Source: Procambarus clarkii
Lineage: Eukaryota > Arthropoda > Malacostraca > Decapoda > Cambaridae
DNA length: 64,000 nucleotides
Direction: 5' to 3'
Assembly: GCF_040958095.1 (NCBI RefSeq)
Contig: NC_091230.1
Span: 7,077,926 to 7,141,925, forward strand
Positions 37,106-62,925 of this stretch are shown piece by piece; positions within the stretch are counted from its first letter, which is position 1; each line of letters opens with the position of its first letter. The position numbers and the translations under genes are program-made. The notes under the pieces are model-generated. The model made no database searches, was not told where the DNA came from, and was given only the letters and a program-made list of their open reading frames with translations.

Positions 37106-37630
37106 AGGAAGATCAAGTGAAGTTTTTATAAGCATTGAAGGCGTTCAGGTGGCGGATGGTCGCCGTGTGCAGGAAGTTGTACTGTTCCTGTGGAGTTTAC
37201 ACAACACATTATCTCAAGTAGTTTATGTATTTCCTTCCCCTTCACCAACCATAATACAACATGCTCGGAATTTTCATATATTCTGTCTATTTACTATATA
37301 TACATAAAATATTTTATTATAAATTATAACGTCACTACCAACAGTGTCAATAGTTCACACCCAAAAATTATTGAGCTTTACTTAAAAGCCTTAAAGTCTT
37401 CACAAGTCTGAGAACATCAACCGATTATCACAATGTATTATTTAGCGGCATCAACAAAGTTTCCTATTAATGTTACATCTAAGAAAGATGAATGTAAAAC
37501 AGCTCCATGCAACCTTCTCAATAAATTCTGCCAAACAGAAATACTTATTTTTCATCATTTAAGTTTGTATACAGTAAAACAAATAGATATAAAGATAACT
37601 ATTTCACACTCATTGAGAAGTAAAGAAAGT
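37106..37630. other. AT-rich spacer, nothing recognised
   Basis: No domain, RNA or repeat recognised. Short frames at 37190-37411 and 37433-37672 are unsupported. Confidence 0.5.
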
Positions 37631-38722: not shown

Positions 38723-39180
38723 TCACACTCGTCTAAATCAGCTGGTTTTCTTTTAAAACTGTAAGGTTATTAAAATTCTAAATCAAACTATGTTAGGTTA
38801 GGAGAGGCTTGATCAGTCTATTCTAGGTTATTGCTTGAGTGGGTTGTGTTAGGTTACGTTGCGAAAGTTAGGATTCATTTCATACAATTAGACCTGTCGT
38901 CGACCGTCTTGTAGAGGAAAGTAGATGCAGGAGAGAAAAATTTTCACTACGAAACATACGTCTTGAGAAGATGGAAGAGGAACATAATGAGGTGCAGGAG
39001 TGAGAAGTCTTCATGTGAGAGAATGAATTACCAGCGAGCTTATAAATGAGTGGTAGTGAGTGTACTCATTTATGGTAGTGAGCTATCAGAAAATAGCACG
39101 GTGGCCGCAGTAGCAAATTTCATAAGGAAACTTCACCCATAATAATAGGTAGAAATCCTAAAAAGGTAAAATCAACTTAT
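38723..39180. other. Spacer, nothing recognised
   Basis: Contains a few TTAGGTTA motifs near 38790-38850 but no gene. The left edge of the Gypsy LTR may lie here. Confidence 0.45.
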
Positions 39181-41565
39181 TGAGTGGCGGAGTACTGGCA
39201 GGAGTTTGTGGTCAGTCGGCTACGACCCTTCAACCATCTGTGTGTACAGAGGCCTCCACCTGTTACGTCACGAGGCACCACGTGACCCAAGGAACACTTG
39301 TGATTCATGGCGCCTCCCTGAGCCTACTATCTGATTGGCTCTTTCAAAAAAAGAAGGGACAGTGAGGAAGCGGGAGGCTAGGCTGCCCAGGACACCGGAC
39401 AGGCATTCTGTCTTGTGTCGCGACACCTGTGAGACGTGGTTCTTTGGTTACGGCCACAACTAGAGAGTTGTCACGTCTAAACGCGACACTAAGCTCATCT
39501 CGCTATCTTTGTTCCGACAACGCGAGTCATTCTACAGAATCTGGGTTTTGGAACGATAGGAATTACTATATTACGAGCGAAAAGAGATATATAGAGATTT
39601 TGTACAAACGTGTGATCTCAGCAGAGTGATAAAGACTGCAGTGTTAAGATCCGTGATCGTCGTCAGCATCTGTAGCGATCCGTCAACATATTGCTATGAT
39701 AGCTGACTAGATGGGAATAAGCAAAGGTTTCCCAGAGATCTATGATTCCTTCGGAATACATTAGGCTAATTACAGTTATCTTTGTGGACATAAAAATTTT
39801 CCCCCAAACCGTGCCTCCGAGCGTGGTGTTCAGCTCACTTTTAGAGCGAGCAAATTTCATCCATACGGGAGGGACGCTACCCACTCTCGCCTCACCAGTG
39901 TCACCCAGTGCTCTGCGCCGTGGTGCTCGATTTGAACAGCCGACATCGTCGCCTGTCCATCAGCAGGTCATCCTCCACGTTGTCACGCAAGTCCCCCAGG
40001 TGCAAAAATTGCTGAGTTGGACCTTCAATCAACTGCAGAATTAATCACTGTATGTATGAGGAGAGATTGAATGGGAAGGCCGGTCTATTAATGTGATTAC
40101 TCATAAAATTATCTCTGTGTTGTTTGTGCTGAGTTCCTAGTCTTGACTTTACATCAACTTTTCGACTTGACGTTGTCCATTAGCACCTGTACAGGTGAGG
40201 GAAGCGTTGTCGAGGAACTCACGTGTAAAGGACGATTACAGTAAGTCTGTGGGATTACTGTGATTCAGTCTCTGTTGTTGTAAATATGTTACACATATTT
40301 ACACATTTATTCAGGTTGCACTATTCTGTTGAAGTTGAAGTGCGGTTCAATACATACCAACACTGTAAAATTCCATATGTATACCTGTATCTCTTTTCAG
40401 GGGAAAATCAGTCTTGAGCTGTTAAGAAGTGTGATTGCAGGGTAAAATGTTACTGTGTTTTCTGAATTGTCTGCATAACAAGAATTTATTTGATCTTTTA
40501 TTATTTAAATTGAAGGATCAGTGTTTCATCATTGAGATTAGCTGTCCGTTGAGGCAGTATAATTAGCGAAGTTAGAACAGTGTTGACTGATTCTTGTTTG
40601 ACAAGCTATCGTGTGTGATAGCGTAGTGTTAACGTAATTCGTCTTCATTAATTATCTGTCCGCATGACAATAATTTATATAATGGCTTACTGATTGTTTA
40701 ATTGAGTAACACAATAATTACTGTAGAGAATTATTGTTTTATTGATTGTCTGTAGTGACAGAGTAATTAACGTAAATTATTTTTGATTGTTTGAATGACA
40801 TCTAACAGGAATTAACATTAATTGTTTTGTTTTGATTGAATTTATTGAAGTCAATTGTTTTGGCCTGTGATAGAACGATTAATTATTTTGATTGCCGTCC
40901 TTAGAGACATGTGTTAACGTAATTTAGTTCTTTACCGAAGACTGTCTCAGTGACCAGCCTGGCGGTGTTTGTTGTTTATTAATTGTTTTGCAGCAATTGT
41001 TTTGATTGCATTTTTTGAGTACAAGTGAGCACCCACTTGTTCAGTCTAGTTCTTTGTATCAGCCCAAAGCGGCAAGGACAGGAATCTGTCCTATATTTAT
41101 CTGTTTGAATTTGTGTCACTGACAGACAATTAACGTAACGTTAAACTGAATGTGCTTTGGATTAGTATTAGGTTTTTGTTAATAAATTGTTTTGTTGCCA
41201 AGAAAAGTGTCTTTATGTCAATACCTTTCAACAATATTGACGCCCATGTTTCAAGCTCCATCAAATTTCTTTTCTCTTGCTTTTAACAAAGGCCTGCTTC
41301 TGGATTCGAACCTGATTTATAGACATTACCACTGAATACAAATTCGGTGTGAGGACCCATTAGTTACCTCTTTTGATTGTCACAACAATAGAGGAGCTAT
41401 GACCTAGTGGATAGCAGATTCAAGCAGTTGGACCCCAGAGGCTGCTCTCGCCTGTTATTCCAGTCATTCGAAGTATAATCTTGACATCTGGCACTTATGT
41501 GTTGGCTCTGTGCAGTCCTCCTGACTGGGTTCACTTAACAGTGTTAAATAATAGGAAATCTCACA
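39181..41565 (+). repeat. Probable Gypsy LTR / 5' region (left edge not located)
   Basis: Called from its right end: CTCACA at 41560-41565 followed by a primer-binding site and gag. The left part has promoter-like elements (TTACGTCACG at 39263, CACGTGAC at 39279, CTGATTGGCT at 39331). 40590-41000 has loosely periodic ATTGTTTTGATTG / TTAACGTAA motifs. No second LTR is inside the window, so the length is unknown. Confidence 0.5.
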
Positions 41566-41567
41566 TC

Positions 41568-41584
41568 TGGCGCCCAACGTGGAG
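41568..41584 (+). promoter_or_regulatory. Retrotransposon primer-binding site
   Basis: TGGCGCCCAACGTGGAG two bases after the LTR end. TGGCGCCCAACGTGG is the complement of a tRNA-Lys 3' end used as primer by many retroelements (established knowledge). Its position between LTR end and gag supports the assignment. Confidence 0.8.
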
Positions 41585-41705
41585 CTATGCAACTTGAGTT
41601 TGAGCCCCATGAGCAAACACTTGAGTAAAGTAGACATTGTTGCAGTGTTTGAGTGGGAATCAGTACTGTTGAAGGTTGTGGTTGTTCACTGTTGTCATCA
41701 GTTAG

Positions 41706-41876
<171 letters not shown>

Positions 41877-43165
41877 ATGTCTGAAACTCTCAAGGTCAGG
41901 TACTTGGAAATTTATGTTGCTTTCCAAGGCTGCGTGCTAGTGGACTATGACAGCCTCACTGAAGAAGAATGTCAAGTGGAGGTGTGTAGGTACCAAGCTA
42001 GAGTGCAACATATGTTGCAAGGGAGCACTCAGGAGTTGCCTGGATTGCATGATGCAAGCTTTTACACTGTGGAGGAAGTCAGTGAAAGCAAACATGGGAA
42101 GGAGGACTTCCCAGTGGATGACAACGTTGTTGTCAGGGGGTGTCAGATGGTGTGACAGCTAGTACACCCTGGAAACAGGATGAGGAATCGAGACCTCAGT
42201 CCAGGATTCAAGTTGAGCCCCTCAGCAAAGGGAGTATTTCATCTGTAGACAGACAGATGCAGGAACTTCTCTCCAGGGGCCTGGTAGCCTGGTGGATAGC
42301 GCGCAGGACTCGTAATTCTGTGGCGTGGGTTCGATTCCCGCACGAGGCAGAAACAAATGGGCAAAGTTTCTTTCACCCTGAATGCCCCTGTTACCTAGCA
42401 GTAAATAGGTACCTGGGTGTTAGTCAGCTGTCACGGGCTGCTTCCTGGGGGTGGAGGCCTGGTCAAGGACCGGGCCGCGGGGACACTAAAGCCCCGAAAT
42501 CAACTCAAGATAACCTCAAGATAACCAGGATGGGGAGTGGACAACCCCAGGAGGGAATTCCCTATTGCAGAGCTGAGAGATCAAGCCGAGGGTCTGGATC
42601 TCCAGGATGACAAGAAAGCCAGCTATATAGCTGACATGTGGATTTTTTAGCAGAGCAGGTTAAGCAGAGAAAGGATTGCTGTCTTGCACGCGCAAGCAGT
42701 TAACACTGCTCAGATGCCACCACTTAGCCCAGCCATTCAGACAGGGCAAGGTTAAGATGCCACGCATGGAACCATTTGATGAAAAGGTCGACTCGATGGA
42801 TGCATACATCCGACACTTTGAACGAATGGTTTCCGATGCAGAATAGAAGAAAACATTCTAGGCAGGAGCTCTTGTGACTTTAGTGAAAGGCCGTGCTCTA
42901 GAGATTTACCATGCATTGGGGCCCCAGCAGCATTGTGAAGTTGATGCCCTAAAGATCGCCTTAATGAAGGGCTTTAGCATTTCAGCTGATGGAATGATGT
43001 AATCAGAATTACAGTGTATCTGCAGTTGGGGCAAACGGTGTTGAACTACTTTACCCTTCACCCGAGTGCTTGGGGGTCACTTGTAAAAAACTTGGCCTGG
43101 GTTCAGGACTTCCAGACTTGCTGTGATTTCAGGAGAAGTCCGGTGTTAAAACTTTTAACAAGTCA
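41877..43165 (+). pseudogene. Gypsy gag, disrupted by a SINE and stops
   Basis: Starts at ATG 41877 (SETLKVRYLEIYVAF, LTEEECQVEVCRYQ). A frameshift near 42140 moves to the frame with RQMQELLSR, then a SINE occupies 42278-42524. The capsid-like part follows (PRMEPFDEKVDSMDAYIRHF at about 42770, TLVKGRALEIYHAL at about 42890, ALMKGFSISADG at about 42960, VLNYFT at about 43035), the pattern of a Gypsy Gag core domain. TAG stops at about 42844 and 42857 replace Trp or similar codons. No protease or pol follows; the element is cut off near 43165 by a tRNA-like segment. Confidence 0.75.
42278..42524 (+). mobile_element. tRNA-derived SINE (Thr-like head) with LINE-B tail
   Basis: Head: box A region TAGCCTGGTGGATAGCG, an anticodon-like stem-loop CAGGA-CTCGTAA-TTCTG (anticodon CGT, Thr-like), and box B GGGTTCGATTCCCGC. 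Body to about 42450; tail GACCGGGCCGCGGGGACACT then two TCAAGATAACC repeats. CCAGG flanks it at 42273-42277 and 42525-42529. The tail matches the 3' end of LINE-B at 27731-27798, the expected signature of a SINE mobilised by that LINE. Confidence 0.88.
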
Positions 43166-43246
43166 GTGATGGTACAGTGGTAAAGTATGTGGCTGGCAAT
43201 GTCTTGGTCGCGGGGTTCGTGTCGCCTCACAACCAAAGTGGGGTTT

Positions 43247-43255
<9 letters not shown>
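43162..43255 (+). mobile_element. Degenerate tRNA-like SINE head with (ATT)n tail
   Basis: Box A-like TGATGGTACAGTGGTAAAG and box B-like GGGGTTCGTGTCGC 35 bp downstream, followed within 30 bp by a long ATT repeat. A short tRNA-headed retroposon is the simplest reading; a decayed tRNA gene is less likely. Confidence 0.5.
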
Positions 43256-43290
<35 letters not shown>

Positions 43291-43312
43291 TTTAATTATT
43301 ATTGTTAATATA

Positions 43313-43343
<31 letters not shown>

Positions 43344-43430
43344 GTAGTAGCAGTAGTGGTAGTAATAGTAGTAGTAACAGTAGTAGTAGTAACTGTAGTA
43401 GTAGTAGTAGTTGTTGAAATAGTAGTAATA
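43247..43430. repeat. Compound (ATT)n-(AGT)n microsatellite
   Basis: ATT repeats to about 43343 switch to AGT/AGC/GGT trinucleotide repeats to about 43430. Confidence 0.95.
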
Positions 43431-43620
43431 GAAGTGGTAAATTTTTTATTTATATAATAAATATATGTTATTATTAATTATAATTTATATATTATAATCA
43501 AAATAATATTCAAGACTGTTATATCATGTAAGGTTTATTTCCTACAATTTTAGAATAACACATTTAATGTAGCCCTAAATAGATCTTTCAAGACCATAAA
43601 CAGTGATAAATGGGTCTTAC
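43431..43620. other. AT-rich intronic spacer downstream of exon B
   Basis: AT-rich, no gene. On the minus strand it follows the GTAAG donor of the exon at 43621-43685. Confidence 0.5.
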
Positions 43621-43685
43621 CGTGAGGAAGATGGTGACGGGTGTCCAGCTTGTCACTGATGGTGAGGCCGGCCTCTGTGTGGGAC
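43621..43685 (-). CDS. Putative host exon B (65 bp) of an unidentified membrane protein
   Basis: On the minus strand a pyrimidine-containing CACCCTACAG acceptor precedes GTCCCACACAGAGG, and the segment ends at CACG followed by GTAAGA (donor at 43616-43620). Length 65. Exon A ends two bases into a codon; joined here, the frame stays open and reads on as SHTEAGLTISDKLDTRHHLP, a hydrophilic and plausibly cytoplasmic tail. The other two phases contain a stop or a low-complexity reading. No family recognised. The acceptor is also the first unit of the adjacent 45-bp array. The support is splice consensus plus phase agreement only. Confidence 0.5.
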
Positions 43686-44712
43686 CTGTAGGGTGAAGCA
43701 CAGGGTGAATGTGTAAACAGTGTGTGGGACCTGTAGGGTGACACACAGGGTGAATGTGTAAACAGTGTGTGGGACCTGTAGGGTGAGGCACAGGGTGAAT
43801 GTGTACACACTGTGAGAGACCTGTAGGGTGACACACAGGGTGAATGTGTACACACTGTGTGGGATCTGTAGGGTGACACACAGGGTGAATGTGTACACAC
43901 TGTGAGAGACCTGTAGGGTGACACACAGGGTGGGACCTGTAGGGTGACACACAGGATGAATGTGTACACACTGTGTGGGACCTGTAGGGTGACACACAGG
44001 GTAAATATGTACACACTGTGTGGAACCTGTAGCGTGACACACAGGGTGAATGTGTACACACTGTATGGGACCTGTAGGGTGACACACAGGGTGAATGTGT
44101 ACACACTGTGTGGGACCTGTAGGGTGACACACAGGGTGAATGTGAACACACTGTGTGGGACCTGTAGGAAGAGGCACAGGGTGAATGTGTACACACTGTC
44201 TGGGATCTGTAGGGTGACACACAGGGTGAATGTGTACACACTGTGTGAGACCTGTAGGAAGAGTCACAGGGTGAATGTGTACACACTGTGTGAGACCTGT
44301 AGGAAGAGGCACAGGGGGAATGTGTACACACTGTGTGGGACCTGTAGGGTGACACACAGGGTGAATGTGTACACACTGTGTGGGACCTGTAGGAAGAGTC
44401 ACAGGGTGAATGTGTACACACTGTGTGGGACCTGTAGGGAGACACATAGGGTGAATGTGTACACACTGTGTGGGACCTGTAGGGTGACACACAGGGTGAA
44501 TGTGTACACACTGTGTGAGACCTGTAGGGAGACACACAGGGTGAATGTGTACACACTGTGTGAGACCTGTAGGGTGACACACAGGGTGAATGTGTACACA
44601 CTGTGTGGGACCTGTAGGGTGACACACAGGGTGAATGTGAACACACTGTGTGGGACCTGTAGGAAGAGTCACAGGGTGAATGTGTACACACTGTGTGGGA
44701 CCTGATGTGACA
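43686..44712. repeat. 45-bp minisatellite carrying the 3' splice site (about 23 copies)
   Basis: Period 45 (for example CCTGTAGG at 44341 and 44386). On the minus strand each full unit contains CCCTACAG followed by GTCCCACACAG, identical to the exon B acceptor and its first 11 exonic bases, then TGTGTACACATTCACCCTGT. Variants replace the GGTGACACAC part (GAAGAGTCAC, GAAGAGGCAC, GGAGACACAC). Long frames on both strands are artefacts of a period divisible by 3. Confidence 0.97.
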
Positions 44713-44821
44713 CACAGGGTGAATGTGTAAACATTGCCCACAGTTGTTTAGGGCTGATGCATCCTGTCTTATGTGGCAATATTTCTTTGACTTGGTTTAC
44801 CTTATGATATTAGTTTATTAA
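44713..44821. other. Unique spacer between the two intronic arrays
   Basis: About 110 bp with no repeat identity after a final partial 45-bp unit; pyrimidine-poor on the minus strand. It separates the 45-bp and 20-bp arrays. Confidence 0.6.
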
Positions 44822-47821
44822 CCACCTGTGTAACGCCCAGCCTACCTGTGTAACACCCAGCCTACCTGTGTAACACCCAGCCTACCTGTGTAACACCCAG
44901 CCTACCTGTGTAACACCCAGCCTACCTGTGTAACACCCAGCCTACCTGTGTAACACCCAGCCTACCTGTGTAACACCCAGCCTACCTGTGTAACACCCAG
45001 CATACCTGTGTAACACCCAGCCTACCTGAGTAACACCCAGCCTACCTGTGTAACACCCAGCCTACCTGTGTAACACCCAGCCTACCTGTGTAACACCCAG
45101 CCTACCTGTGTAACACCCAGCATACCTGTGTAACACCCAGCCTACATGAGTAACACCCAGCCTACCTGTGTAACACCCAGCCTACCTGTGTAACACCCAG
45201 CATACCTGTGTAACACCCAGCCTACCTGAGTAACACCCAGCCTACCTGTGTAACACCCAGCCTACCTGTGTAACACCCAGCCTACCTGTGTAACACCCAG
45301 CCTACCTGTGTAACACCCAGCATACCTGTGTAACACCCAGCCTACCTGTGTAACACCCAGCATACCTGTGTAACACCCAGCCTACCTGAGTAACACCCAG
45401 CCTACCTGTGTAACACCCAGCATACCTGTGTAACACCCAGCCTACCTGAGTAACACCCAGCCTACCTGTGTAACACCCAGCTAACCTGTGTAACACCCAG
45501 CCAACCTGTGTAACACCCAGCCAACCTGTGTAACACCCAGCCTACCTGTGTAACACCAAGCCAACCTGTGTAACACCCAGCCTACCTGTGTAACACCCAG
45601 CCAACCTGTGTAACACCCAGCCTACCTGTGTAACACCCAGCCAACCTGTGTAACACCCAGCCTACCTGTGTAACACCCAGCCTACCTGTGTAACACCCAG
45701 CCAACCTGTGTAACACCCAGCCTACCTGTGTAACACCCAGCCTACCTGTGTAACACTAAGCCTACCTGTGTAACACCCAGCCAACCTGTGTAACACCAAG
45801 CCTACCTGTGTAACACCCAGCCTGCCTGTGTCACACCCAGCCTACCTGTGTAACACCCAGCCTACCTGTGTAACACCCAGCCTACCTGTGTAACACCCAG
45901 CCTACCTGTGTAACACCCATCCAACCTGTGCAACACCCGGCCTACCTGTGTAACACTAAGCCTACCTGTGTAACACCCAGCCAACCTGTGTAACACCAAG
46001 CCTACCTGTGTAACACCCAGCCTACCTGTGTCACACCCAGCCTACCTGTGTAACACCCAGCCTACCTGTGTAACACCCAGCCTACCTGTGTAACACCCAG
46101 GCTACCTGTGTAACACTAAGCCTACCTGTGTAACACCCAGCCAACCTGTGTAACACCAAGCCTACCTGTGTAACACCCAGCCTACCTGTGTCACACCCAG
46201 CCTACCTGTGTAACACCCAGCCTACCTGTGTAACACCCAGCCTACCTGTGTCACACCCAGCCTACCTGTGTAACACCCAGCCTACCTGTGTAACACCCAG
46301 CCTACCTGTGTAACACCCAGGCTACCTGTGTAACACTAAGCCTACCTGTGTAACACCCAGCCAACCTGTGTAACACCAAGCCTACCTGTGTAACACCCAG
46401 CCTACCTGTGTCACACCCAGCCTACCTGTGTAACACCCAGCCTACCTGTGTAACACCCAGCCTACCTGTGTAACACCCAGCCAACCTGTGTAACACCCAG
46501 CCTACCTGTGTAACACCCAGCCTACCTGTGTAACACCCAGCCTACCTGTGTAACACCCAGCCAACTTGTGTAACACCAAGCCTACCTGTGTAACACCCAG
46601 TCTACCTGTGTAACACCCAGCCAACCTGTGTAACACCAAGCCTACCTGTGTAACACCCAGCCTACCTGTGTCACACCCAGCCTACCTGTGTAACACCCAG
46701 CCTACCTGTGTAACACCCAGCCTACCTGTGTAACACCCAGCCAACCTGTGTAACACCCAGCCTACCTGTGTAACACCCAGCCTACCTGTGTAACACCCAG
46801 CCTACCTGTGTAACACCCAGCCAACTTGTGTAACACCAAGCCTACCTGTGTAACACCCAGTCTACCTGTGTAACGCCAAGCCTACCTGTGTAACACCAAG
46901 CCTACCTGTGTAACACCAAGCCTACCTGTGTAACACTAAGCCTACCTGTATAACACCCAGCCAACCTGTGTAACACCCAGCCAACCTGTGTAACACCCAG
47001 CCTACCTGTGTAACACCCAGACTACCTGTGTAACACCCAGCCTACCTGTGTAACACTAAGCCTACCTGTGTAACACCAAGCCTACCAGTGTAACACTAAG
47101 CCTACCTGTGTAACACCCAGCCTACCTGTGTAACACCCAGCCTACCTGTGTAACACTAAGCCTACCTGTGTAACACCCAGCCTACCTGTGTAACACCAAG
47201 CCTACCTGTGTAACACTAAGCCTACCTGTGTAACACCCAGCCTACCTGTGTAACACCCAGCCTACCTGTATAACACCCAGCCTACCTGTGTAACACCCAG
47301 CCTACCTGTGTAACACCCAGCCTACCTGTGTAACACTAAGCCTACCTGTGTAACTCCCAGCCTACCTGTGTAACACCCAGCCTACCTGTGTAACACTAAG
47401 CCTACCTGTGTAACACCCAGCCTACCTGTGTAACACCCAGCCTACCTGTGTAACACCCAGCCTACCTGTGTAACACCCAGCCTACCTGTGTAACACCCAG
47501 CCTACCTGTATAACACCCAGCCTACCTGTGTAACACCCAGCCTACCTGTGTAACACCCAGCCTACCTGTGTAACACTAAGCCTACCTGTGTATCTCCCAG
47601 CCTACCTGTGTAACACCCAGCCTACCTGTGTAACACTAAGCCTACCTGTGTAACACCCAGCCTACCTGTGTAACACCCAGCCTACCTGTGTAACACCCAG
47701 CCTACCTGTGTAACACCCAGCCTACCTGTGTAACACCCAGCCTACCTGTATAACACCCAGCCTACCTGTGTAACACCCAGCCTACCTGTGTAACACCCAG
47801 CCTACCTGTGTAACACCCAGC
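44822..47821. repeat. 20-bp minisatellite (about 150 copies)
   Basis: Unit TAACACCCAGCCTACCTGTG with a few recurring variants (CCAACCTG, CATACCTG, CTAAGCC, CCAAGCC). Blocks with identical variant order recur (for example 45755-45920 against 45955-46100 and 46110-46260; 47160-47400 against 47400-47640), showing repeated segmental duplication. On the minus strand each unit contains CAGGTAGGCTGGGT. The array continues at 49795-49898 and 55077-55236 on the far side of two insertions. Confidence 0.98.
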
Positions 47822-49772
47822 CAGCCCGAGTTATATAATCCATCTTTGTCTACCCTGTCAATTTCCCTCAGAATTTTGTATATGATGATCATGTCTCTGT
47901 GAGCTCTTCTGTCTTCCAGCAACGTGAGGTGCAGTTCACACAGCCTTTCTTCGTAACTCATGCCTCTTAGTTCTGGGACTAGCCTAGTGGCATACTCTGA
48001 ACTTTCTTCAGCTTCGTCTTGTGCTTGACAATGTACGTGTTTCATGTTGGGGCTCCATACTCCAGGATTGGTCGTACATATGTGGCAAACAAGGTTCTGA
48101 ATTATTTCTTACACAGGTTCCTGATGGATGTTCTCATGTTAGCCAGCCTCGAATACACTGCCGATGTTATTCTTATTATGTGGGCTTCACGAGACAGGTT
48201 TCGCATGATATAAACTCATAGATCTTTCTCTCTGTCCGTTTCTTGAAGGACTTCATCTCCCATTCGGTATTAAGTGTCTGGAGCCCTATTTCCTCTGTCT
48301 AGTTTTATTACCTTACATTTTCTTGGGGCTAAACTTTAGTAGCCATTTGTTGGACCATTCCTTCAGTTTGTCTAGGTCATCTTGTAGCCTCATACTAAAT
48401 TCCTCTGTCTTGATCCTCCTCATAATTTTTGCATCATCAGCAAATATTGAAAGGAACGAGTCTATTCACTCTGGGAGAACATTTACGTATTTCAAAAACA
48501 GTATAGGTTCAAGGACTGATCACTGTGGGACTCCACTGGTGATTCCTCGCAACTCCGAGACCTCACCCCTCACAGTGATTCGCTGTCTTCTGTTCCTTAG
48601 GTACTCCCTTTTCTAGTGGAGTACTTCGCTGTCACTCCTGCCACATCTCCAACTTGTGCACTAGTCTCTTACGTGGTATTGTGTCAAAGTCTTTCTGGCA
48701 GTCCAGAAAAATGCAGTCTGCCTAGCCCTCTTTATGTTGCCTAATTTTTATTGACTGGTCATAAAACTCAATTAAACCTGTTATGCATGATTTATAATCC
48801 TTGAACCCCATGCTGATGTTGTGTTACAAAGTTCTTTTGCTCTAGATGTTCCACTAGCATTTTTCGCACAATCTTCTCCATCAGCTTGCATGGAATGCAA
48901 GTTAGGGACACTGGCCTGTAGTTCAGTGCCTCCTGCCTATCACCTCTTCTTAAATATCAGAACTACATTAGCCGTTTTCCTAATTTTTAGCAGTTCACCT
49001 GTTACCATTGGTTTGTTGTACACCATGGAGAGTGGCAGGCACAGCGCTTCTGCTCTTTCCTTTAGAATCCATGGTGAGAATCCATCCGGGCCTATAGCCT
49101 GTGTTACATTCAAATCTAGCAGATGCTTCTTCTCCTCCGCACTGGTAATCACAAACTCGACTAGTGGTGTCTAGTTAGATATTCCCTCTCTTATCTCTAG
49201 GACTTCTCCTTGCTCTGATGTGAAGACCTCCTGGCATTTTTTATTGAGTACCCCGCACACTTCCTTGTCGTTTGTAGTGAATCTGTCTGCCAACATCCTC
49301 AGTTTCATTACCTGTTGCTATACTGTAGTTTGGGTTGAGCATGCCTTGCTCGCCATGTCATTTTTAATTTGCCTCTCTGCCTCTCTTCTCACCCTGACAT
49401 ATTCATTCCGGGCGCTCTGGTATATTTCTCTGCCCTCTAATGTCCTTTTATTTCTATAGTTTATCCACGCCCTTGTGCTTAGTTGCTTTGCTAGCTAACA
49501 TCTCTGATTAAATCATGGGTTTCTCGTCTGCAATTAATTTGTTCTTTTTGGACTAAGACGAACTGGTCTGCTGCCTCCTTACACTTCTGCGTGTTGTAGT
49601 CTATCATGTATTGGGCCGTCTTTCCTCTGAGCTCTGTTGCCCATGCTATATCAGTTAGGAATTTCTTTATCTCCTCATAGTTTCCCATCCGGAATGCCGG
49701 CCTTTTGTTTTCTGGTCCCTTCCTTAAGTACATTAACCCTTCTTTGACTAGATACTCAAACATTAATACACT
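47822..49772 (-). mobile_element. LINE-A copy 5, truncated at both ends, inside the 20-bp array
   Basis: Minus-strand LINE-A from the end of the endonuclease (SVLMFEYLVKEG near 49755) through the linker, AIGPDGFSPWILKE (about 49085), AFDTIP-like and GVPQ-like remnants, FADDAKIMRR (about 48430), to ATRLVPELRGMSYEERL (about 47975) and the C-terminal region. It stops at 47822, short of the usual 3' UTR. Stops and frameshifts are frequent. The Trp codon that became TGA in copies 1 and 2 is intact here (48343-48345). Confidence 0.85.
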
Positions 49773-49898
49773 GTGATGTTTACACAGTTGTACTGTGTTC
49801 ACCTGCGTAGCACATAGCCTACCTGTGTAACACACAGCCTACCTGTATAACACCCAGCCTATCTGTGTAACACCCAGCCTACCTGTGTAACACCCAGC
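49773..49898. repeat. Continuation of the 20-bp array
   Basis: Six or so 20-bp units, the first ones diverged, between LINE-A copy 5 and the Gypsy-like element. Ends with CCAGC (49894-49898), the left target duplication. Confidence 0.9.
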
Positions 49899-50814
49899 TG
49901 TTACGGCCACAATGGATCGCAACCGGGTTCTTTACTGGTGGAGCTAAAGTTCTGGTATCCGGCCCCAAGTTAGTAGTGGCTTTCAAGGAGTGAGCTCGGT
50001 AATGCAAGTAAAACACAATGGGGAAGGTGCAATTGAATACGACACTTCATCAATTATCAATATATTCACATATAAACACTTTCCCATCACCTCGTATATA
50101 ATCCTAAAGGAAGTATTACTACACTTAATATGTACACAAGTGTCTCTCTCATAGGACATTAAGCGCTCCTCGATGCTCAATCGATGCAGTCTTGTCAACT
50201 ACCGTGTTTCCTCAACACAAGTACCGTCCTCAACCAGTACTGGGAAACACCAACGAGTCTACCCTGGCCACGGACCAGCCAAAACACAGTCTCACTAGGT
50301 GCTCTTCGTGCACGCCCACAATCACTCTCCAGCCTGGTGCTGGCAGAGAACATCAGCCTCGCGCTGCTGGGCCTCTTCACGTACAAATACAAGGGTAGCG
50401 AACCCTTGGCAGGAGCTTCTTGCAACTCGCTGGTTACACTCCTCCATAGCACCTTACTATCAGTCGCCTCTTCCGTTAGCCAGTCCCGGGTACGCCGAAT
50501 TCTGTCACTGCCACTTCACAGGTAGACAGTAGAACACTACATAGTTCTTCTCCGGCAGTGGCTCACTGCCGGAGAAGAACTCCTTACAACTCCTCCTATA
50601 ATAGATGGCGCTGCTTTTCAAGGAGCCACCTCACCAGAGGTCAGCACCAGCTACCTCTTGAGCTGACTAGGACAGGAATCTAGCGCCTCTTGCTGGTATA
50701 ATTCTGTCACCACTAGATGGCGTCGTCCATTTTGTAAGGGATTTCGAGAGCGGACTCACAGATGGCATTGACATCGCTGCTCCATGCTCAGACGATGGAA
50801 TCGGGTTCGTAACA
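49899..50814 (-). repeat. Gypsy-like LTR, left copy (3' LTR)
   Basis: 916 bp; on the minus strand it starts TGTTACG and ends CGTAACA, a perfect 7-bp inverted terminus. It matches 54012-55076 except that a roughly 170-bp segment of the right LTR is replaced by a perfect hairpin at 50544-50580. The PPT-like GTTGGGGAGG lies directly outside it on the minus strand. Confidence 0.93.
50544..50580. repeat. Perfect 17-bp inverted repeat (hairpin) in the 3' LTR
   Basis: GTTCTTCTCCGGCAGTG, a 3-base loop GCT, then its exact reverse complement. In the other LTR the left arm occurs once (54656-54672, one mismatch) and is followed by unrelated sequence to about 54847. Confidence 0.95.
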
Positions 50815-51079
50815 CCTCCCCAACAAAAGGAATTTGGTTTGGGTTTCTACAAAGGAGAAAACAAACCAAATTTGTACGTTAGTATAATACCAAACAGACG
50901 CACATAAACAATGGACTGATGTGGCGAGGATGTCCTGTCTGCAAAACTGCCTTAATAGGAGACTCTGGCACAAGGAAAACTCGAAGATCATAGGCAATGA
51001 CCTGCCTGATGTGACTTCCAGAAACCTTACTGGGATGCCCGTCAAAGGCACAATTATCTTATGTATCTTGGGTAAGGAT

Positions 51080-51620
51080 CTATAGAGGCTCGATCTGGGG
51101 TGAATAGACACCTCCCTGTGTTGTAGCACCACTGGTGGCTGGTCGCAGAAGGCATTTTTTTTCACCGGTCTGGCAGTCTTTCAGGGAGACTGAAATCTGG
51201 AATACAGGGGACTGATGATTCGGAGTAACAGCGATAGGCTTTACACCTGTACTTACAGCATAACTGCTTACTAGTCCCACACCTAGTCCCAACAGGACCG
51301 CTTGTACATTGAAGATTGTGTTCGCTCTTCCACCATCAGGTCGACCAACGTTCCGTATAATGTTGAATCCAAGCTCAGCAATTATGCGGGGGGCATCAAC
51401 CTGATGGGAATAGTCACTCATTAAAACATTTCTCCTGCTCCCTGTATCATCAATCACATTCTGGGTCCCTTCTTCATCTGACGGTTCGTCCACTGATCTT
51501 CGCTTAGGACACACACGAGAATAATACAAAATACCACTAAGAAACATTTTGCTAACTTAGGAATAATTTTCATGAGCCTGTAATATCCATTGCTGGCTAT
51601 ATCCATTAGCCTGGCTTGGA
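51080..51620 (-). pseudogene. Unidentified ORF X downstream of the protease in the Gypsy-like element
   Basis: At about 51590-51520 the minus strand encodes a hydrophobic stretch (CFLVVFCIILVCVLS) preceded by Lys residues, like a signal or membrane anchor, in the frame of the gag-protease ORF. The next frame over (51080-51547) is open for 155 codons with a hydrophilic first half and a second hydrophobic run (LLGLGVGLVSSYAVS). One frameshift separates the two. No family recognised. Its position, where env would be if pol is deleted, makes a decayed envelope-like gene one possibility; a captured host segment or a C-terminal pol remnant are others. Confidence 0.4.
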
Positions 51621-53775
51621 TCAAAGAGGGCACTAGAACTTGCGCACATACCTCTGACGTCTGGGGAATCTCTGGCCGGATCAGTGAATACAGTACCTTG
51701 CCATACCGCAAGTACTTATCTGCCATCACTCCAGACTCTTGGTTATCCATGGGCGCTAGTACATGAGGCCCCTCTTCTTGCTCAGTTGCTTCTGTTACCG
51801 TAAGCCCATGTTTCTCGTTGGGAGAAGAGTCAGCAGAATCTGTTGGAATGCTCTCAATCTGTTGGGTAGAGGGAGAATTAAACATGTTATGTAATTTCAC
51901 GTCTGCCAGTACCTGGGTATTAATGTTTTCTGCTGTCACCTCAGACCTTATTACTGAATCGTCCACCATCTTGAGATGTTCGTAGTTCAAACCTGTCGCC
52001 AAGTCGTTGCCTAGTACTACGTCTATCCCAGCTATGGGCAGGGTATCAACTACTGCCAACGCACATGTGCCACTGAAGTAAGGCGAGTCTAGGTGTACTT
52101 GCACTAAGGGGGCAACGTACCGCATCTAAGGAAACCCAACTAGAATAACTTTTTGTCTCCCGTCAACATTCATTCCCTCGGGTAGCGAGTCGCTCACGAT
52201 CAGGGACTGGGCTGCTCCACTATCTCCGAGCACTAAAACTGATCTACCAGTATGATCATTCGTTACATACCCGCCTGAAGTGTGAGGGGCAAATAATCCT
52301 GATCCTTCTCTACTCATCATTAGAGACTGGGTTCCCACTGGTGGTGTCGTACAACCCATCAGCATTACTTCTCTGTGTGGGTCGTTACCTGTCCCTCCTT
52401 GGCACCTGGCAGCAACATGCCCTCTCTGCCCGCAAGTCCAACACACTACATTCCTCCTTGGACTACGGTGTGTTGGTCTGTTAGGACTAGTCCTTCGGGG
52501 ACTACCTGGGAGCGTCTTCAAGGCGCTTAGTGGGACGTGTTTCTCTTCTTCTTCTTCTTGTCGAGATTTGCCAAACAGACGTTGGTAACTCTTCGGGAAA
52601 TACTTCATAGAGGATCGATAAGTTAGGATGTACTCCTCAGCCATAGTGGCAGCCGCACTCAAGGTCTCCACCTGCTGTTCTTCTAAGTATGTCTTCAGAT
52701 CCCCAGACAGGCAATCTTTGAAATCCTCCAACAGTATGAGCTGCTCGAGTTGTTCTTTCGTCTTCACCTTTCGAGATGCACACCATTCTTGAAAAAGCCG
52801 TTCCTTGATGTTCGCAAACTCTGTGAACGTGTGCTCCGAGGTCTTCTTCAGGTTCCTGAACTTTTGCCTATAGGCCTCTGGCACAAACTGATAAGCCATG
52901 AGCACTACCTTCTTCACAGTGTCGTAATCACTGGAATCATCAAGTGACAACGTGGAGTAGGCAATTTGAGCCTTTCAAGTCAAGACGGACTAGATCATGA
53001 TGGTCCAATTATCCTTTGGCCAATCCAAAGAGGCAGCAACCTTTTCGAAGGCGGCGAAGAACTTTGAAACTTCCTTTTCATTGAATTTTGGGACCATCTT
53101 TATATTTCTCACTGGATCGAAACTACTTGTTTCCTTTGTTTTCCTCTGACCACCTAATAGTACCACTTCTAACTCCAGGAGTCTTTCCTTCTCCTTTACT
53201 TGTCTTTCTCGTTCTTCTTTTTCCCTTATTCTTCTTTCTTCTCTTTCTTTTTCTCGCTCTTCTCTTTCTTTTTCTCGCTCTTCTCTTTCTCTTCTTTCTT
53301 CTCTTTCCTTCTCTTTTTCTTGTAATTCCAAACTTTTCATTTCCGTTTCCTTCTCTTTCAAAGCCATTTCCTTTTCTATCTCCTTTTCTTTCATTTCTCG
53401 TTCTATTTCTAATTTCTTCCACTCTATCACACGATTTATTTCTAAGGCACGCATTTTGACAGTTAGAAAACTTATATTCAGATCTCCCGCATCACTTTCA
53501 CCGTCACTGCCTTTATCTTCCTTTTCAGTGGAAGTCACCACACTTTCCTTTGTACTCTGTGCCTCGCTTTCCTGCTTCTCCCCGGCCTTCAAGTGCTTAT
53601 GAACCTTTGATAAGATTTCAACCCGGGAATCCCTCTCACGTATTTTGATCTCTAAATAGGCACTTACTAGCACAAGTTCCTACTTTCCCAGATGTTTCAA
53701 TCTAGCAAGACAGTCCTCCTTATTCAGAAAGTCCGGAACATCGTCTAGATCCTCGATGGTTATTTTCACTGCCAT
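51454..53775 (-). pseudogene. Gypsy-like gag-protease polyprotein with four in-frame stops
   Basis: One continuous minus-strand frame from the ATG at 53773-53775. Parts in order: N-terminal segment; acidic linker; a long charged coiled coil rich in Glu/Arg/Lys (about 53420-53200); capsid with PKFNEKEVSKFFAAFEKVA and VPEAYRQKFRNLKK; zinc knuckle CWTCGQRGHVAARC (about 52445); retropepsin site LGDSGAAQSLI (about 52225) and flap/C-terminal part GIDVVLGNDLA (about 52015). Stops: TAG 53680-53682, TAG 52990-52992, TGA 52975-52977, TAG 52126-52128, the last inside the protease. No frameshift occurs over 2.3 kb up to ORF X. Normal products would be virus-like-particle coat, nucleocapsid and polyprotein protease. 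Confidence 0.85.
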
Positions 53776-54011
53776 TATGTCACCAAGTTGTGCACGAGCA
53801 AGTAATACACCGCTTCACTTAACACTGGACACTTATAATAACTGAGCACCGCGATCGCCAATACTGCAATTAATCACACTTAGCACTGCACAGGACATGT
53901 AACGTCCTAAAAATAACGAACAGGGGAATTATCCACAGAGGGTTGCACTACGTCACCACCCCTGTCAAACGTACTTGACAAGAGATCGGATCCCGCGGCG
54001 GATGCCAATTA
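53776..54011 (-). other. Gypsy-like leader with PBS-like sequence
   Basis: Between gag and the 5' LTR. Immediately inside the LTR the minus strand reads TTGGCATCCGCCGCGGGATC, beginning with TGG as expected where a tRNA CCA end pairs; the matching tRNA was not identified. Confidence 0.55.
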
Positions 54012-55076
54012 TCTTATGGCCACAATGGGTCGCAACCGGGTTATTTACTAGTGGAACTAAAGTTCGGGTATCCGGCCCCAAGTTAGCAGTGGCTTTCAAG
54101 GAGTGAGCTCGGTAATGCAAGTAAAACACAATGGGGGAGGTGCAATTGAATACGACACTTCATCAATTATCAATATATTCACATATAAACACTTTCCCAT
54201 CACCTCGTATATAATCCTAAAGGAAGTATTACTACACTTAATATGTACACAAGTGTCTCTCTCATAGGACACTAAGCGCTCCTCGATGCTCAATCGATGC
54301 AGTCTTGTCAACTACCGTGTTTCCTCAACACAAGTACCGTCCTCAACCAGTACTGGGAAACACCAACGAGTCTACCCTGGCCACGGACCAGCCAAAACAC
54401 AGTCTCAGTCTCAGGTGCTCTTCGTGCACGCCCACAATCACTCTCCAGCCTGGTGCTGGCAGAAAACATCAGCCTCGCGCTGCTGGGCCTCTTCACGTAC
54501 AAATACAAGGGTAGCGAACCCTTGGCAGGAGCTTCTTCTCGCTGGTTACACTCCTCTGTAGCACCTTACTATCAGTCGTCTCTTCCGTTAGCCAGTCCTG
54601 GGTACGCCGAATTTTGTCACTGCCACTTCACAGGCAGACAGTAGAACACTACACAGTTCTTCTCCGGCAGTGACTTACTGCTTCCGTAAAGCAGAATGGA
54701 TTAGAGAGCTATTGGCTTCCCTGGGTAGACTGACTGTCCTCGTACCACAGCAGCCCTATGTCGACTCTGTGCATACAGACACATCATCAGTACACTGGTC
54801 AGTACATGGGACACTAGGAAACATTACTTACATACTCTGACAGACATACAACTCCTCCTATACTAGATGATGCTGCTTTTCTAGGCGCCACCTCAACATA
54901 GGTCAGCACCAGCTACCTCTCGAGCTGACTAGGGCAGGAATCTAGCGCCTCTTGCTAGTATAATCCTGTCACCACTACATGGCGTCGTCCATTTTGTGGG
55001 GGATTTCGAGAGCGGACTCACAGATGGCATTGACGTCGCTGCTCCATGCTCCGACGATGGAATCGGGTTCGTAACA
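54012..55076 (-). repeat. Gypsy-like LTR, right copy (5' LTR)
   Basis: 1065 bp partner of 49899-50814, longer by the 54673-54847 segment. The inner end is mutated (TCTTATGG against TGTTACGG). The outer end TTCGTAACA is followed by CCAGC and the 20-bp array. Confidence 0.93.
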
Positions 55077-55236
55077 CCAGCCTACCTGTGTAGCACCCAG
55101 CTTACCTGTGTAACACCTAGCCTACCTGTGTAACACCCAGGCTACCTGTGTAACACTCAGCCTACCTATGTAACACCCAGCCTACCTGTGTAACACCCAG
55201 CCTACCTGTGTAACACCCAGCCTACCTGTGTAACCT
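55077..55236. repeat. Right-hand end of the 20-bp array
   Basis: About eight 20-bp units, some diverged, ending 55 bp before the exon A donor. Confidence 0.92.
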
Positions 55237-55295
55237 CCCACCCCAGCGTTTTTGAGTAGGCCCCAACCAACGTCCACAAGACCCAGCCTACTTAC

Positions 55296-55434
55296 CTGCG
55301 GCGCCACAGGAAGAAAGCAGCCAGCTCCACAAGCAGTTCAATGGCGAGTACCAGGCCCAGGTAGAGGGCTGCACAGGCGGTGGTGTTGACTGTGTAGCGG
55401 TGAGGGGGAGACACCACCATTTCCCGGTGGGGAC
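55296..55434 (-). CDS. Putative host exon A (139 bp): transmembrane segment of an unidentified protein
   Basis: On the minus strand this reads an open, balanced-codon frame: [18 protein letters not shown] (with an N-x-T glycosylation motif), then a roughly 20-residue hydrophobic helix ([19 protein letters not shown]), then LWRR and a donor CGCAG/GTAAGTAGG at 55296/55295, close to the perfect consensus. The right edge is uncertain: ...GGCACAG at 55435-55437 is a weak acceptor (poor pyrimidine tract) and an in-frame ATG lies at 55418-55420, so this could be an internal or a first coding exon. A TGA closes the frame just upstream at about 55448. Two acidic residues in the helix hint at a multi-pass or partner-binding protein (inference). 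Confidence 0.5.
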
Positions 55435-56420: not shown

Positions 56421-58281
<1,861 letters not shown>

Positions 58282-58284
<3 letters not shown>

Positions 58285-58668
58285 GTACCTAGTAGCCAGA
58301 ACGCACTTTTCAGCATACTATGCAAGGCCCGATTTGCCTAATAAGCCAAGTTTTCATGAATTAATGTTTTTTCGACTACCTAACCTACCTAACCTAACCT
58401 AACCTAACTTTTTCGGCTACCTAACCGAACCTAACCTATAAAGATAGGTTAGGTTAGGTTAGGTAGGGTTGGTTAGGTTCGGTCATATATCTACGTTAAT
58501 TTTAACTCCAATAAAAATTTTGTTTACCTCATACATAATGAAATGGGTAGCTTTATCATTTCATAAGAAAAAAATTAGAGAAAATATATTAATTCAGGAA
58601 AACTTGGCTTATTAGGCAAATTGGGCCTTGCATAGTAGGCTGAAAAGTGCGTTCTGGCTACTAGGTAC

Positions 58669-58671
<3 letters not shown>
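58282..58671 (+). mobile_element. MITE-like element, copy 4
   Basis: 390 bp in the orientation of copy 1. Its right (TA)n tract leads directly into the Penelope-like fragment. Confidence 0.9.
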
Positions 58672-58741
<70 letters not shown>

Positions 58742-58744
<3 letters not shown>

Positions 58745-58960
58745 TCATTGAATATGACCGCATATTCTGTATTTATTATTTTCTGGTTTAGGGCTTCTAT
58801 CCCTCTAACTATTTTCTTAGCATCAGGGCTTAGTTGAAATAGGAGTTCTCCAAAACTCATTTTCGTACTTTTAAGGTGAAGAAAAGAAGTGATTTACTAT
58901 AGAGTGTATTACACTTTTTTATACAATTTGCACAACGTTTCGAACCTCCATGGTTCATTC
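58742..58960 (-). mobile_element. Penelope-like element fragment with hammerhead-like motif
   Basis: Minus strand 58860 to 58742 encodes MSFGELLFQLSPDAKKIVRG and then a Lys/Ile-rich helix ending IFNET, which I read as the N-terminal region of a Penelope-like retroelement ORF (pattern memory, not searched). Upstream on the same strand (58925-58960) CACCTGAATGAACC pairs with GGTTCGAAACG, resembling a decayed hammerhead ribozyme as found in Penelope terminal repeats. The TA tract cuts off the rest. Confidence 0.4.
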
Positions 58961-59027
58961 AGGTGCAGTCACAGTGAGAGGTTGTGTTAGCTGGAGCTCC
59001 GATTCTAATAACATTATTATTGCAATA

Positions 59028-59912
59028 ATGGAAGGATTAGTGAAGGATTTGGTGAGTCTGGTTGGAGCTCTGAGAGCAGAGATGGATTCCCTGCGGGAGG
59101 AGGTACGACGGCTGAGACTTCGGGAGGAAACGAAGGAGGAGGCCAGTGTTGACGGGAACTCATTAAGAAGGACTGACGGGACCAGTATTAAGAAGTCCTC
59201 GTCTTGGCAAGTTGTGAAAGACAGGGGTCATAAGAAGACCTTGGCAAAACCGACTACTAATAGCCTACACCTAAGGACTTTTAACACATTTGACGTATTA
59301 AAGGACGAGTGCTGTGTTGAACCTGTTGTTCAACGAGGTGGCAAAGACAAAGTAACGAGGAGCATTGAAGCGCAGGCCCCTCAAACTGCTCGAAAGGAAA
59401 AGGGAGAATCGAAGCGAATTTTGGTTGTGGGAGATTCCCAGGTGAGGTATTTAGACAGAACGTTTTGTGCCAGAGATAGGGGGAACAGATTAAGGGCTTG
59501 CTATCCGGGAGCTGGAATTGGTGATATTGTTGAAAACATGAATGATATTATGACAGGAAATGGGAACAAACCCATTATTTGTATTAGTGCAGGGGGTAAT
59601 GATGTTGGGCGAGTTAGGAGTGAGGAACTAATACAGAGATTTAGGACAGCCATTGAATTAGTTAGGAGCAAGGGAGGAATCCTGATCATATGTGGCATTC
59701 TTCCAAGAAAGGGAGTGGGAAATGAATGGATGTCGAGGGCACTTGGTGTCAATTGCCGGCTGGAAAGATATTGCAAATCAAATGCAATATCTTTCATAGA
59801 CAACTGGGAACACTTCTATGGAAGAAATGAAATGTATGCTCGTGATGGGGTGCATCTATCGACGGCTGGGGTTGTTGCTGTTGCAAACTCGTTGGAACCA
59901 GTGGTTAGTTAG
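59028..59912 (+). CDS. LINE ORF1: SGNH/GDSL-esterase-type protein with coiled coil (intact)
   Basis: 294 residues from the ATG at 59028, chosen over the ATG at 58950 because a typical ORF1 coiled coil starts here (LVKDLVSLVGALRAEMDSLR, residues about 4-23, then Glu/Arg-rich to about 35). A low-complexity basic linker follows, then an SGNH hydrolase core: block I VVGDSQ (Asp136-Ser137, the nucleophile Ser), a Gly/Asn block SAGGNDVG (Asn191), and block V DGVHLS (Asp273, His276). All catalytic positions are present and the frame has no stop, unlike every other element ORF here. In CR1-type LINEs the esterase ORF1 is thought to bind and carry the element RNA, possibly at lipid membranes; its substrate is not known. 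The next ORF follows after about 100 bp. Confidence 0.85.
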   Translation: MEGLVKDLVSLVGALRAEMDSLREEVRRLRLREETKEEASVDGNSLRRTDGTSIKKSSSWQVVKDRGHKKTLAKPTTNSLHLRTFNTFDVLKDECCVEPVVQRGGKDKVTRSIEAQAPQTARKEKGESKRILVVGDSQVRYLDRTFCARDRGNRLRACYPGAGIGDIVENMNDIMTGNGNKPIICISAGGNDVGRVRSEELIQRFRTAIELVRSKGGILIICGILPRKGVGNEWMSRALGVNCRLERYCKSNAISFIDNWEHFYGRNEMYARDGVHLSTAGVVAVANSLEPVVS

Positions 59913-60008
59913 TGGTTTGTTTGGGTTTAAACTGTTAGTAGTTAGTGGTATGGGAATTGATTTGGAGGAAGGAGGTAATAAAAGTATGTGTTCGTGGGAG
60001 AAAAGAAT

Positions 60009-60911
60009 TGGCAAAATGATCAGGGAAAGAAAAGGGCCTCAAAATAACAATTCATTTAGGATATATTACACTAACAGTAGAAGTCTAAGAAATAAAATAA
60101 TGAATTAAATGCTCTTGTCTGCACAGAAAAAATAGATATTATTGCACTTACCGAAACGTGGATGAACATAGAAAATAGAGAACTATTAGCTGAATATCAG
60201 ATAAATGTATTTAAACTATTTCACACAGATAGATATATTAGACGAGGAGGGGGAGTAGCCATATATGTTAGGGACAATTTGAAATGTAGTCTCAAAGAGG
60301 GAATCAAAACTGAGCCACACACAGAAACTATTTGGATAGAATTAAACGAAAGAGCAAATAATATTATAATAGGAGTTATATATAGGCCACCAAATTTAGA
60401 CAGAATGGAAGCAAAGCATCTATGGGATGAAATATCTAGAGCATCTAGATCTAACAGTATTTATGTCATGGGTGACTTTAATTTTAGTGGAATAAACTGG
60501 GTGAACAAAACAGGGAATAGTGAAGCAGAAGATTTTCTAGAATTAATTGACGATTGCTTTCTTACACAACACATTAAGGAACCAACGCGGGAAAATAATA
60601 TTTTAGATTTAGTGTTAACTAACAGGGAAACACAAATTAATGACATCGAAATAGGGAGTGAGCTAAGGAACAGTGATCACAAAGTAATCAGATTTAGCAT
60701 AGGAGAAAATTCTGTTAAAGTGCCAGATTTTCGAAAAGCTGATTTTAATAGCCTAAGAAATTTTTTGGGTCAAATAGATTGGAAACTCTTGGGTATGGGG
60801 TGTGGGCCGGTCTTAGAGCGAGACATGAACCAAGCGATAGGTGACGTAAAAGGGGATTTCGATGTGGATTTAATATATAACTTATTTAAGAATATTCTAA
60901 ACAAAGCATAG
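60009..60911 (+). pseudogene. CR1-like ORF2, endonuclease domain
   Basis: EEP nuclease: FRIYYTNSRSLRNKI (about 60057), one-base frameshift near 60102, IIALTETWMN (about 60140), RRGGGVAIYVRDNL (about 60240), VIYRPPN (about 60376), VMGDFNFSGINW (about 60465), LDLVLTN and SDHKVIRFS (about 60673). The catalytic Glu, Asp/Asn and terminal Asp-His pairs are all present. A TAG at 60909 breaks the frame before the linker. Confidence 0.85.
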
Positions 60912-62866: not shown

Positions 62867-62925
62867 ATAGGACCTGCCTCGTATGGGCCAATAGGCCTTC
62901 TGCAGTTGCCTTTGTTTTTATGTTT

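Follow-up and report, generated by a model that had tools for sequence, protein, structure and literature searches.

The stretch of Procambarus clarkii DNA analysed here, called the window below, comprises 64,000 nucleotides (RefSeq assembly GCF_040958095.1, contig NC_091230.1, positions 7,077,926 to 7,141,925 of the forward strand) and carries, on its minus strand, part of a gene in which an intron of 11,610 bp holds a minisatellite array at either end, one with a unit that spans the splice acceptor and one that reaches the splice donor. Positions are numbered within the window. Three exons, all on the minus strand, were located by tblastn with P0001, an uncharacterised P. clarkii protein of 147 residues: exon 1 (55296..55434), which encodes a probable transmembrane segment (span judged by eye) and matches residues 60-106 at 87% identity; exon 2 (SHTEAGLTISDKLDTRHHLPH; 43621..43685), which matches residues 105-132; and exon 3 with its stop codon (GTVQLPAHGDHPPPERLQCL; 37126..37187), which matches residues 128-147 with identity at 20/20 residues. 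The intron under study separates exons 1 and 2. Exon 3, whose coding part is read at 37187-37129, is missing from the exon list of an earlier reading made from the letters and their open reading frames (ORFs), hereafter the sequence-only reading. Because exons might have been chosen where the arrays end, protein matches served as a check independent of the arrays. The joined translation of exons 1, 2 and 3 is identical to P0001 at 80/87 residues, and P0001 was the sole match among six candidates. A second P. clarkii protein, P0002, annotated as receptor-type tyrosine-protein phosphatase epsilon, has exons 1 and 2 and their junction in common with the window, and the residues R|SHT at that junction are kept in both proteins. 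Judged by these protein matches, both exons bordering the intron are real.

The remainder of the gene is less readily followed. The first 59 residues of P0001 have no convincing match within the window by tblastn, and a protein search for relatives of P0001 recovered only P0001 itself among 51 candidates. In P0002 the same two exons are followed by a phosphatase domain (PF00102, by Pfam) for which tblastn gave no convincing match in the window; the single weak one (residues 177-223, E = 0.14) is interrupted by a stop codon and maps to the opposite strand, within a long terminal repeat (LTR) element. A Pfam search with the exon 1+2 peptide gave no match. Another frame of exon 3 (EQYNFLH...) resembles, on inspection, a phosphatase C-terminus, although Pfam and PDB searches gave nothing. 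The best explanation we can offer includes a host gene that would be a transmembrane, receptor-phosphatase-related crayfish gene. The gene at 37126-43685 looks like a truncated receptor tyrosine phosphatase copy, as the P0002 domain has no convincing match in the window.

Arrays were called with Tandem Repeats Finder (TRF), and all features of the intron described here lie on the minus strand. By a script count, whose element boundary is six bases off from the one given below, the intron consists of 7,150 bp of inserted elements, 4,309 bp of arrays and 151 bp of other sequence, which bears out the statement of the sequence-only reading that nearly all of the intron outside mobile elements is tandem repeat. 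The acceptor side is occupied by 23.0 copies of a 45-bp unit (43675..44733), which is separated by 90 bp of non-array intron (44734..44823) from the main 20-bp array (44824..47822), with 149.9 copies of the unit AGGTAGGCTGGGTGTTACAC at a mean identity to the consensus of 97%. A decayed reverse-transcriptase element, LINE-like (resembling a long interspersed nuclear element) and typed by eye from its ORFs, lies at 47823..49800, where it separates two stretches of 20-bp array; no target duplication was recognised for it. Beyond it follow a fragment of 4.9 copies (49801..49898), an LTR retroelement with interrupted frames (49899..55076, ends read by eye) and a donor-proximal fragment of 8.2 copies called at 55071..55234, of which the bases up to 55076 are part of that retroelement. 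Degenerate 20-bp units, in register and then followed by a short insertion (55235..55291), link this fragment to the true donor, CAG|GTAAGT (55290..55298), which matches the U1 consensus used for donor scoring at 9/9 positions. With the exons confirmed by protein, the TRF calls thus put an array at each end of a single intron, as had been proposed.

The LTR element also orders these events. With boundaries read by eye, it is bordered on each side by the 5-bp sequence GCTGG inside a 20-bp unit, and the 20-bp array is therefore older than the LTR insertion. The direct repeats of the element are 93-96% identical; their two alignment blocks, 672 and 232 columns long, contain 36 mismatches, which marks the insertion as not recent.

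The acceptor-side array has the clearer relationship to its splice junction. Its 45-bp unit consists of 34 intronic and 11 exonic bases and so spans the acceptor; the consensus includes CCCTACAG|GTCCCACACAG, of which the exonic part, GTCCCACACAG, makes up the opening 11 bases of exon 2. As the sequence-only reading had described for about 23 units, this exonic part recurs upstream, exactly in 10/23 units and with one or two bases changed in 13/23. Exon 2, whose initial 11 bases thus double as array sequence, agrees with the unit at 11/11 bases and departs from it at the 12th. Read in exon 2, the 11 bases complete R and encode SHT, and since R|SHT is kept in P0001 and P0002, the exon is likely to be the source and the array the copy. 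The true acceptor, CCCTGTGCTTCACCCTACAG (43686..43705), is the last in a row of 24; a pattern ending in AG finds 23 copies upstream of it, against the 23.0 units called by TRF. Compared with the real acceptor over positions -20 to -1, 22/23 of these decoys share 16-19 of its 20 bases; the most distal one shares 10/20. The branch-point motif yUnAy has a counterpart at -21 in 21/24 acceptors. One unit is short (26 bp, at 43936-43911). The variant TGTTTACAC, noted by eye, occurs in units 22-23 and at the distal edge of the array, a pattern expected from homogenisation that acted on the inner units and spared the edges. The comparison of unit and exon supports an acceptor array seeded by the intron-exon boundary.

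On the donor side, most 20-bp units contain the donor-like sequence CAG|GTAGGC. When the 157 AG|GT sites of the array were scored against the U1 consensus, 131 scored 7/9, one scored 8/9 and 25 scored 4-6/9, whereas the real donor scores 9/9. Within the 66 bases around the donor, an ungapped alignment of 50 bases runs in register with the 20-bp unit and is identical at 34/50; its score was reached by 0/4275 random non-array segments of the window, and dinucleotide shuffles gave p = 0.0015 with permissive and 0.0065 with strict scoring. In a control with 15 flanks of 8 arrays of the window, one flank, the right one of an 18-bp array, which by eye holds one further unit, scored 17, against 18 for the donor flank; the other 14 scored 5-12. 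Donor-like sites scoring at least 7 occur about once per thousand positions in non-array sequence, giving a chance of about 2% that a 20-bp unit holds one on a given strand; they are present in 2/8 array consensus units, those of 20 and 18 bp. By way of degenerate units that stay in register, the 20-bp array extends as far as the donor, from which it is likely to have descended.

Several observations weigh against a junction origin for the donor-side array. First, the array called by TRF ends 61 bp before the donor, and the stretch that links the two is degenerate (34/50). Second, the exonic content of the 20-bp unit is at most three bases, CAG, which is splice consensus as well and need not stem from the junction. 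Third, in a cruder control that compared 8 units with 5 junctions, using 40 bases on each side, the 45-bp unit scored 43 at its own acceptor, whereas the 20-bp unit scored only 14 at the donor, under one foreign pair; among the 38 foreign pairs the top score was 15 (a 40-bp unit at the exon 2 acceptor), followed by 13. Of the eight units compared at the donor, the 20-bp unit ranked first, ahead of the 18-bp unit with 11. Fourth, an array with a similar unit lies more than 40 kb from the intron, with no exon recognised beside it. Finally, minisatellites make up 22.5% of the window, counted over eleven TRF stretches of period 18 or more that were chosen by the analyst, so the nearness of arrays and junctions may be incidental. 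As an observation in its own right, this share is high for a 64-kb window.

How far the arrangement exceeds chance depends on the length of the intron in which the arrays arose. With random array edges in the window, at least 2/5 known junctions fell within 15, 25 and 61 bp of an edge with P = 0.0006, 0.0016 and 0.009, respectively, under a model that is post hoc and presumes a long intron. The residue of about 150 bp of other intron sequence points to a probably short ancestral intron, in which any array would have arisen near a junction. For an ancestral intron of 160-300 bp, a random-placement model gives a probability of 5.4% to 1.8% for an array lying across one junction together with a second array that starts at the opposite junction. 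The two-ended arrangement is therefore unusual, and a junction-seeking mechanism is not required; the earlier wording, that it was unlikely to be chance, was overstated.

We consider it probable that the intron arose by ordinary minisatellite growth at both ends of a short intron, with the outermost copy keeping the true site. Such a history would start from an intron of about 150-300 bp, in which two separate tandem amplifications took place, one with a unit spanning the acceptor (34 intron and 11 exon bases) and the other starting at the donor. A tandem duplication across a splice junction would always leave its outermost copy joined to the intact exon, and for this reason would be nearly neutral. 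Slippage or unequal exchange could then have extended both arrays, and two retroelements would later have entered the donor-side array. The true donor is probably preferred as the better U1 match. At the other end, the established principle of exon definition pairs an acceptor with an exon body and a downstream donor, and the last acceptor, next to the 65-nt body of exon 2, is probably preferred on that ground.

Other explanations have to be weighed against ordinary growth at both junctions; they are not mutually exclusive, and our odds for them do not sum to one. In the first, only the acceptor array is junction-derived, and the donor-side array belongs to a kind of minisatellite with the core GCTGG[GT]TGTTACA that arose or spread at several places and adjoins the donor by chance. 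The array that motivates this proposal lies at 14-2617, on the same strand as the 20-bp array, with the minus-strand unit TGAGCTGGTTGTTACATG and 34 donor-like sites of the form CAG|GTGAG. Its unit and the 20-bp unit have 12/13 core bases in common (shuffle p = 0.0008). On its upstream flank no exon was recognised by eye, and the other flank has only 13 bases in the window. The cruder control, where the donor pair (14) is topped by one foreign pair (15) and does not stand out, points the same way. The similarity is, however, only p ~0.045 after correction for 56 comparisons, and the donor region fits the 20-bp unit far better than the 18-bp unit (18 versus 9), and in register. We therefore hold a foreign core to be possible, if unlikely. 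The proposal that the donor array was seeded by its junction consequently stands as far as the in-register reach to the donor is concerned, and is weakened by the CAG-only exonic content and by the similar 18-bp array elsewhere; that there are two arrays stands, and it is doubtful whether the 20-bp unit is independent of other loci, as was supposed.

The same unit-to-unit test, in whose 56 comparisons about one result at p up to 0.02 is expected by chance, also returned similarities between the 45-bp and a 28-bp unit in both orientations (p = 0.013 and 0.0067), which we ascribe to a palindromic core, and between the 18-bp unit and a 41-bp unit (array 5477-6553; p = 0.017). The 28-bp array lies at 37653-38722 in the next intron and ends some 465 bp short of the acceptor of exon 3, with low similarity to that junction (score 8); its palindrome, CACACTGTGTG, resembles part of the 45-bp unit. 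The idea that the 20-bp unit is a fragment of a dispersed element was rejected: only a stretch from 42404 is alike, the one place among 45,877 plus-strand 18-mers to equal the 18-bp unit in score, and this may be chance. Searches of viral contigs gave 0 matches for either of two array patterns, a result with little bearing on animals.

A second alternative takes the locus to be a partial receptor phosphatase duplicate that is decaying, with splice sites under little constraint and arrays that are irrelevant to splicing. It draws on P0002, which joins the same two exons to PF00102, a domain without a convincing counterpart in the window. Against decay stand the open frames, the canonical junctions and, by protein comparison, the 80/87 residues shared with P0001 and the 20/20 of exon 3. 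We regard a decaying duplicate as doubtful, though deserving of attention.

The sequence-only reading had also raised selection for decoy splice sites. A further alternative is that the 45-bp units are used: upstream acceptors would in some transcripts add 15-residue repeats of the kind SHTVCTHSPCVSPYR downstream of the membrane segment, and the units would be kept open by selection. From all 24 acceptors an open frame does lead from exon 1 to exon 3, and the normal C-terminus is retained with the five decoys closest to exon 2, whose exons would, by arithmetic, measure 110-290 nt. Six acceptors, including the real one, end in this way; the other 18 cross the 26-bp unit, which shifts their frame, and end in another. 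The openness is itself weak evidence, as a unit length is divisible by three one time in three. Both P0001 and P0002 take the exon-proximal acceptor, without a repeat, and a protein search with one such isoform as query gave 2 matches among 96 candidates, both repeat-free, with a reach limited to proteins of about 89-283 residues. We found no evidence of selection for decoys in these comparisons and think such use of the units improbable; upstream acceptors may leak, although the protein search gave no sign of it.

An assembly artefact that inflated or invented the arrays is very improbable: long near-identical arrays are hard to assemble, but the units vary along the main array (24 distinct forms among 149 units) and two insertions break it at distinct places. 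Two further candidates were rejected. RNA pairing between both arrays is not favoured over chance, either in duplex energy (-51.3 versus a shuffle mean of -48.0 kcal/mol, p = 0.285) or in sequence complementarity (p = 0.109). The 20-bp unit is like a recursive (ratchet) splice site, as such sites are defined, in abutting acceptor and donor dinucleotides (CAG|GTAGGC), and differs in lacking a polypyrimidine tract; before its AG the pyrimidine score, taken over 16 positions minus 3 if AG lies inside, is 4, versus 12 for the 45-bp unit.

Three other features of the window were recorded. Two near-identical ORFs of 100 residues on the minus strand (10584-10886 and 17135-17437) are probably two copies of one repeat. 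Several long AT microsatellites occur at 56600-58745, partly within a 455-bp tandem unit and beside short runs of AACCT-like repeats. On the plus strand, 58893-63291 holds LINE-like ORFs in pieces, endonuclease-like and reverse-transcriptase-like by eye.

The sequence-only reading knew of no named system like this intron, and the literature provides at least two. Lancelet "mirages" are described, in the portions of the reports available to us, as arrays in which a tandem unit spans an intron-exon boundary and many copies keep the AG/GT signals (PMC3087553); they occur in Adh3, the globins BflGb6 and BflGb9, TnC and PGBD5, and regular splicing is reported to be undisturbed (PMC3087553, PMC3902484). 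Mirages also vary in length between haplotypes, as in BflGb6, with 6 and 3 repeats in its two haplotypes (PMC3087553). Judged by its unit of 34 intron and 11 exon bases across the acceptor, the crayfish acceptor array is a mirage in this sense; the donor array, in register with its junction but with only CAG of the exon in its unit, is a candidate. Like mirages, the crayfish arrays keep splice signals in their copies, with 23 upstream acceptors and 157 AG|GT sites in the 20-bp array. Homogenised inner units with divergent edges, another mirage trait, may have a counterpart in the degenerate donor-side edge and in TGTTTACAC at both edges of the 45-bp array, the latter seen by eye; undisturbed splicing may have one in the two repeat-free annotated P. 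clarkii proteins. Set against the mirages as far as those portions describe them, the crayfish case differs in its crustacean host, in affecting both ends of one intron, in its 23 and about 163 copies (versus 6 and 3 in BflGb6) and in a donor unit that crosses the junction by at most three bases.

Donor-side parallels come from the minisatellite of human IFI6 (6-16; Turri et al. 1995), which reportedly lies at an exon's donor. In the accessible part of a later account, this minisatellite offers multiple splice donors, and two downstream units are used as such (PMC4526556). The likeness lies in repeat units as splice donors; the difference, as far as that text goes, is that downstream units are used in IFI6, whereas in the crayfish the real donor is stronger than the decoys, which are known from sequence alone. 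In the available text on the gain of introns through tandemly duplicated AGGT segments (the Rogers model, with a case in potato RdRp; PMC4974935), the shared elements are tandem duplication with AG|GT and a 3' splice module; the crayfish case lengthens an existing intron and shows no new one. In C. elegans, the minisatellite CeRep25B is enriched around regions of alternative splicing and has been suggested to influence splicing; it differs in being a dispersed 24-base minisatellite, for which the consulted portion of the report states no junction-spanning (PMC4039745). No mirage-like case in a crustacean was among the matches listed in our literature searches, some of them aimed at crayfish or Procambarus, and its absence is unproven by them. 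We conclude that this intron, most clearly at its acceptor, belongs with the mirages of lancelet research: it is a striking example of a curiosity already described and not a new system.

A more ambitious hypothesis, to which we give little credence as a whole, is that preferential amplification at splice junctions grows introns from their ends in minisatellite-rich crayfish genomes, that nearly every 45-bp unit here would be a complete 3' splice module with branch-like motif, tract and AG, that the nearest of these units are used at a low level and that array length would govern how many 15-residue repeats stand next to the membrane segment. With this intron, mirages are carried beyond lancelets to a locus in a crustacean, and to either end of a single intron. 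Its 24 acceptors, 23 of them near-identical and differing chiefly in their distance to the exon body, provide a natural test of splice-site choice, and the arrangement suggests a route by which short introns may lengthen while their splice sites survive.

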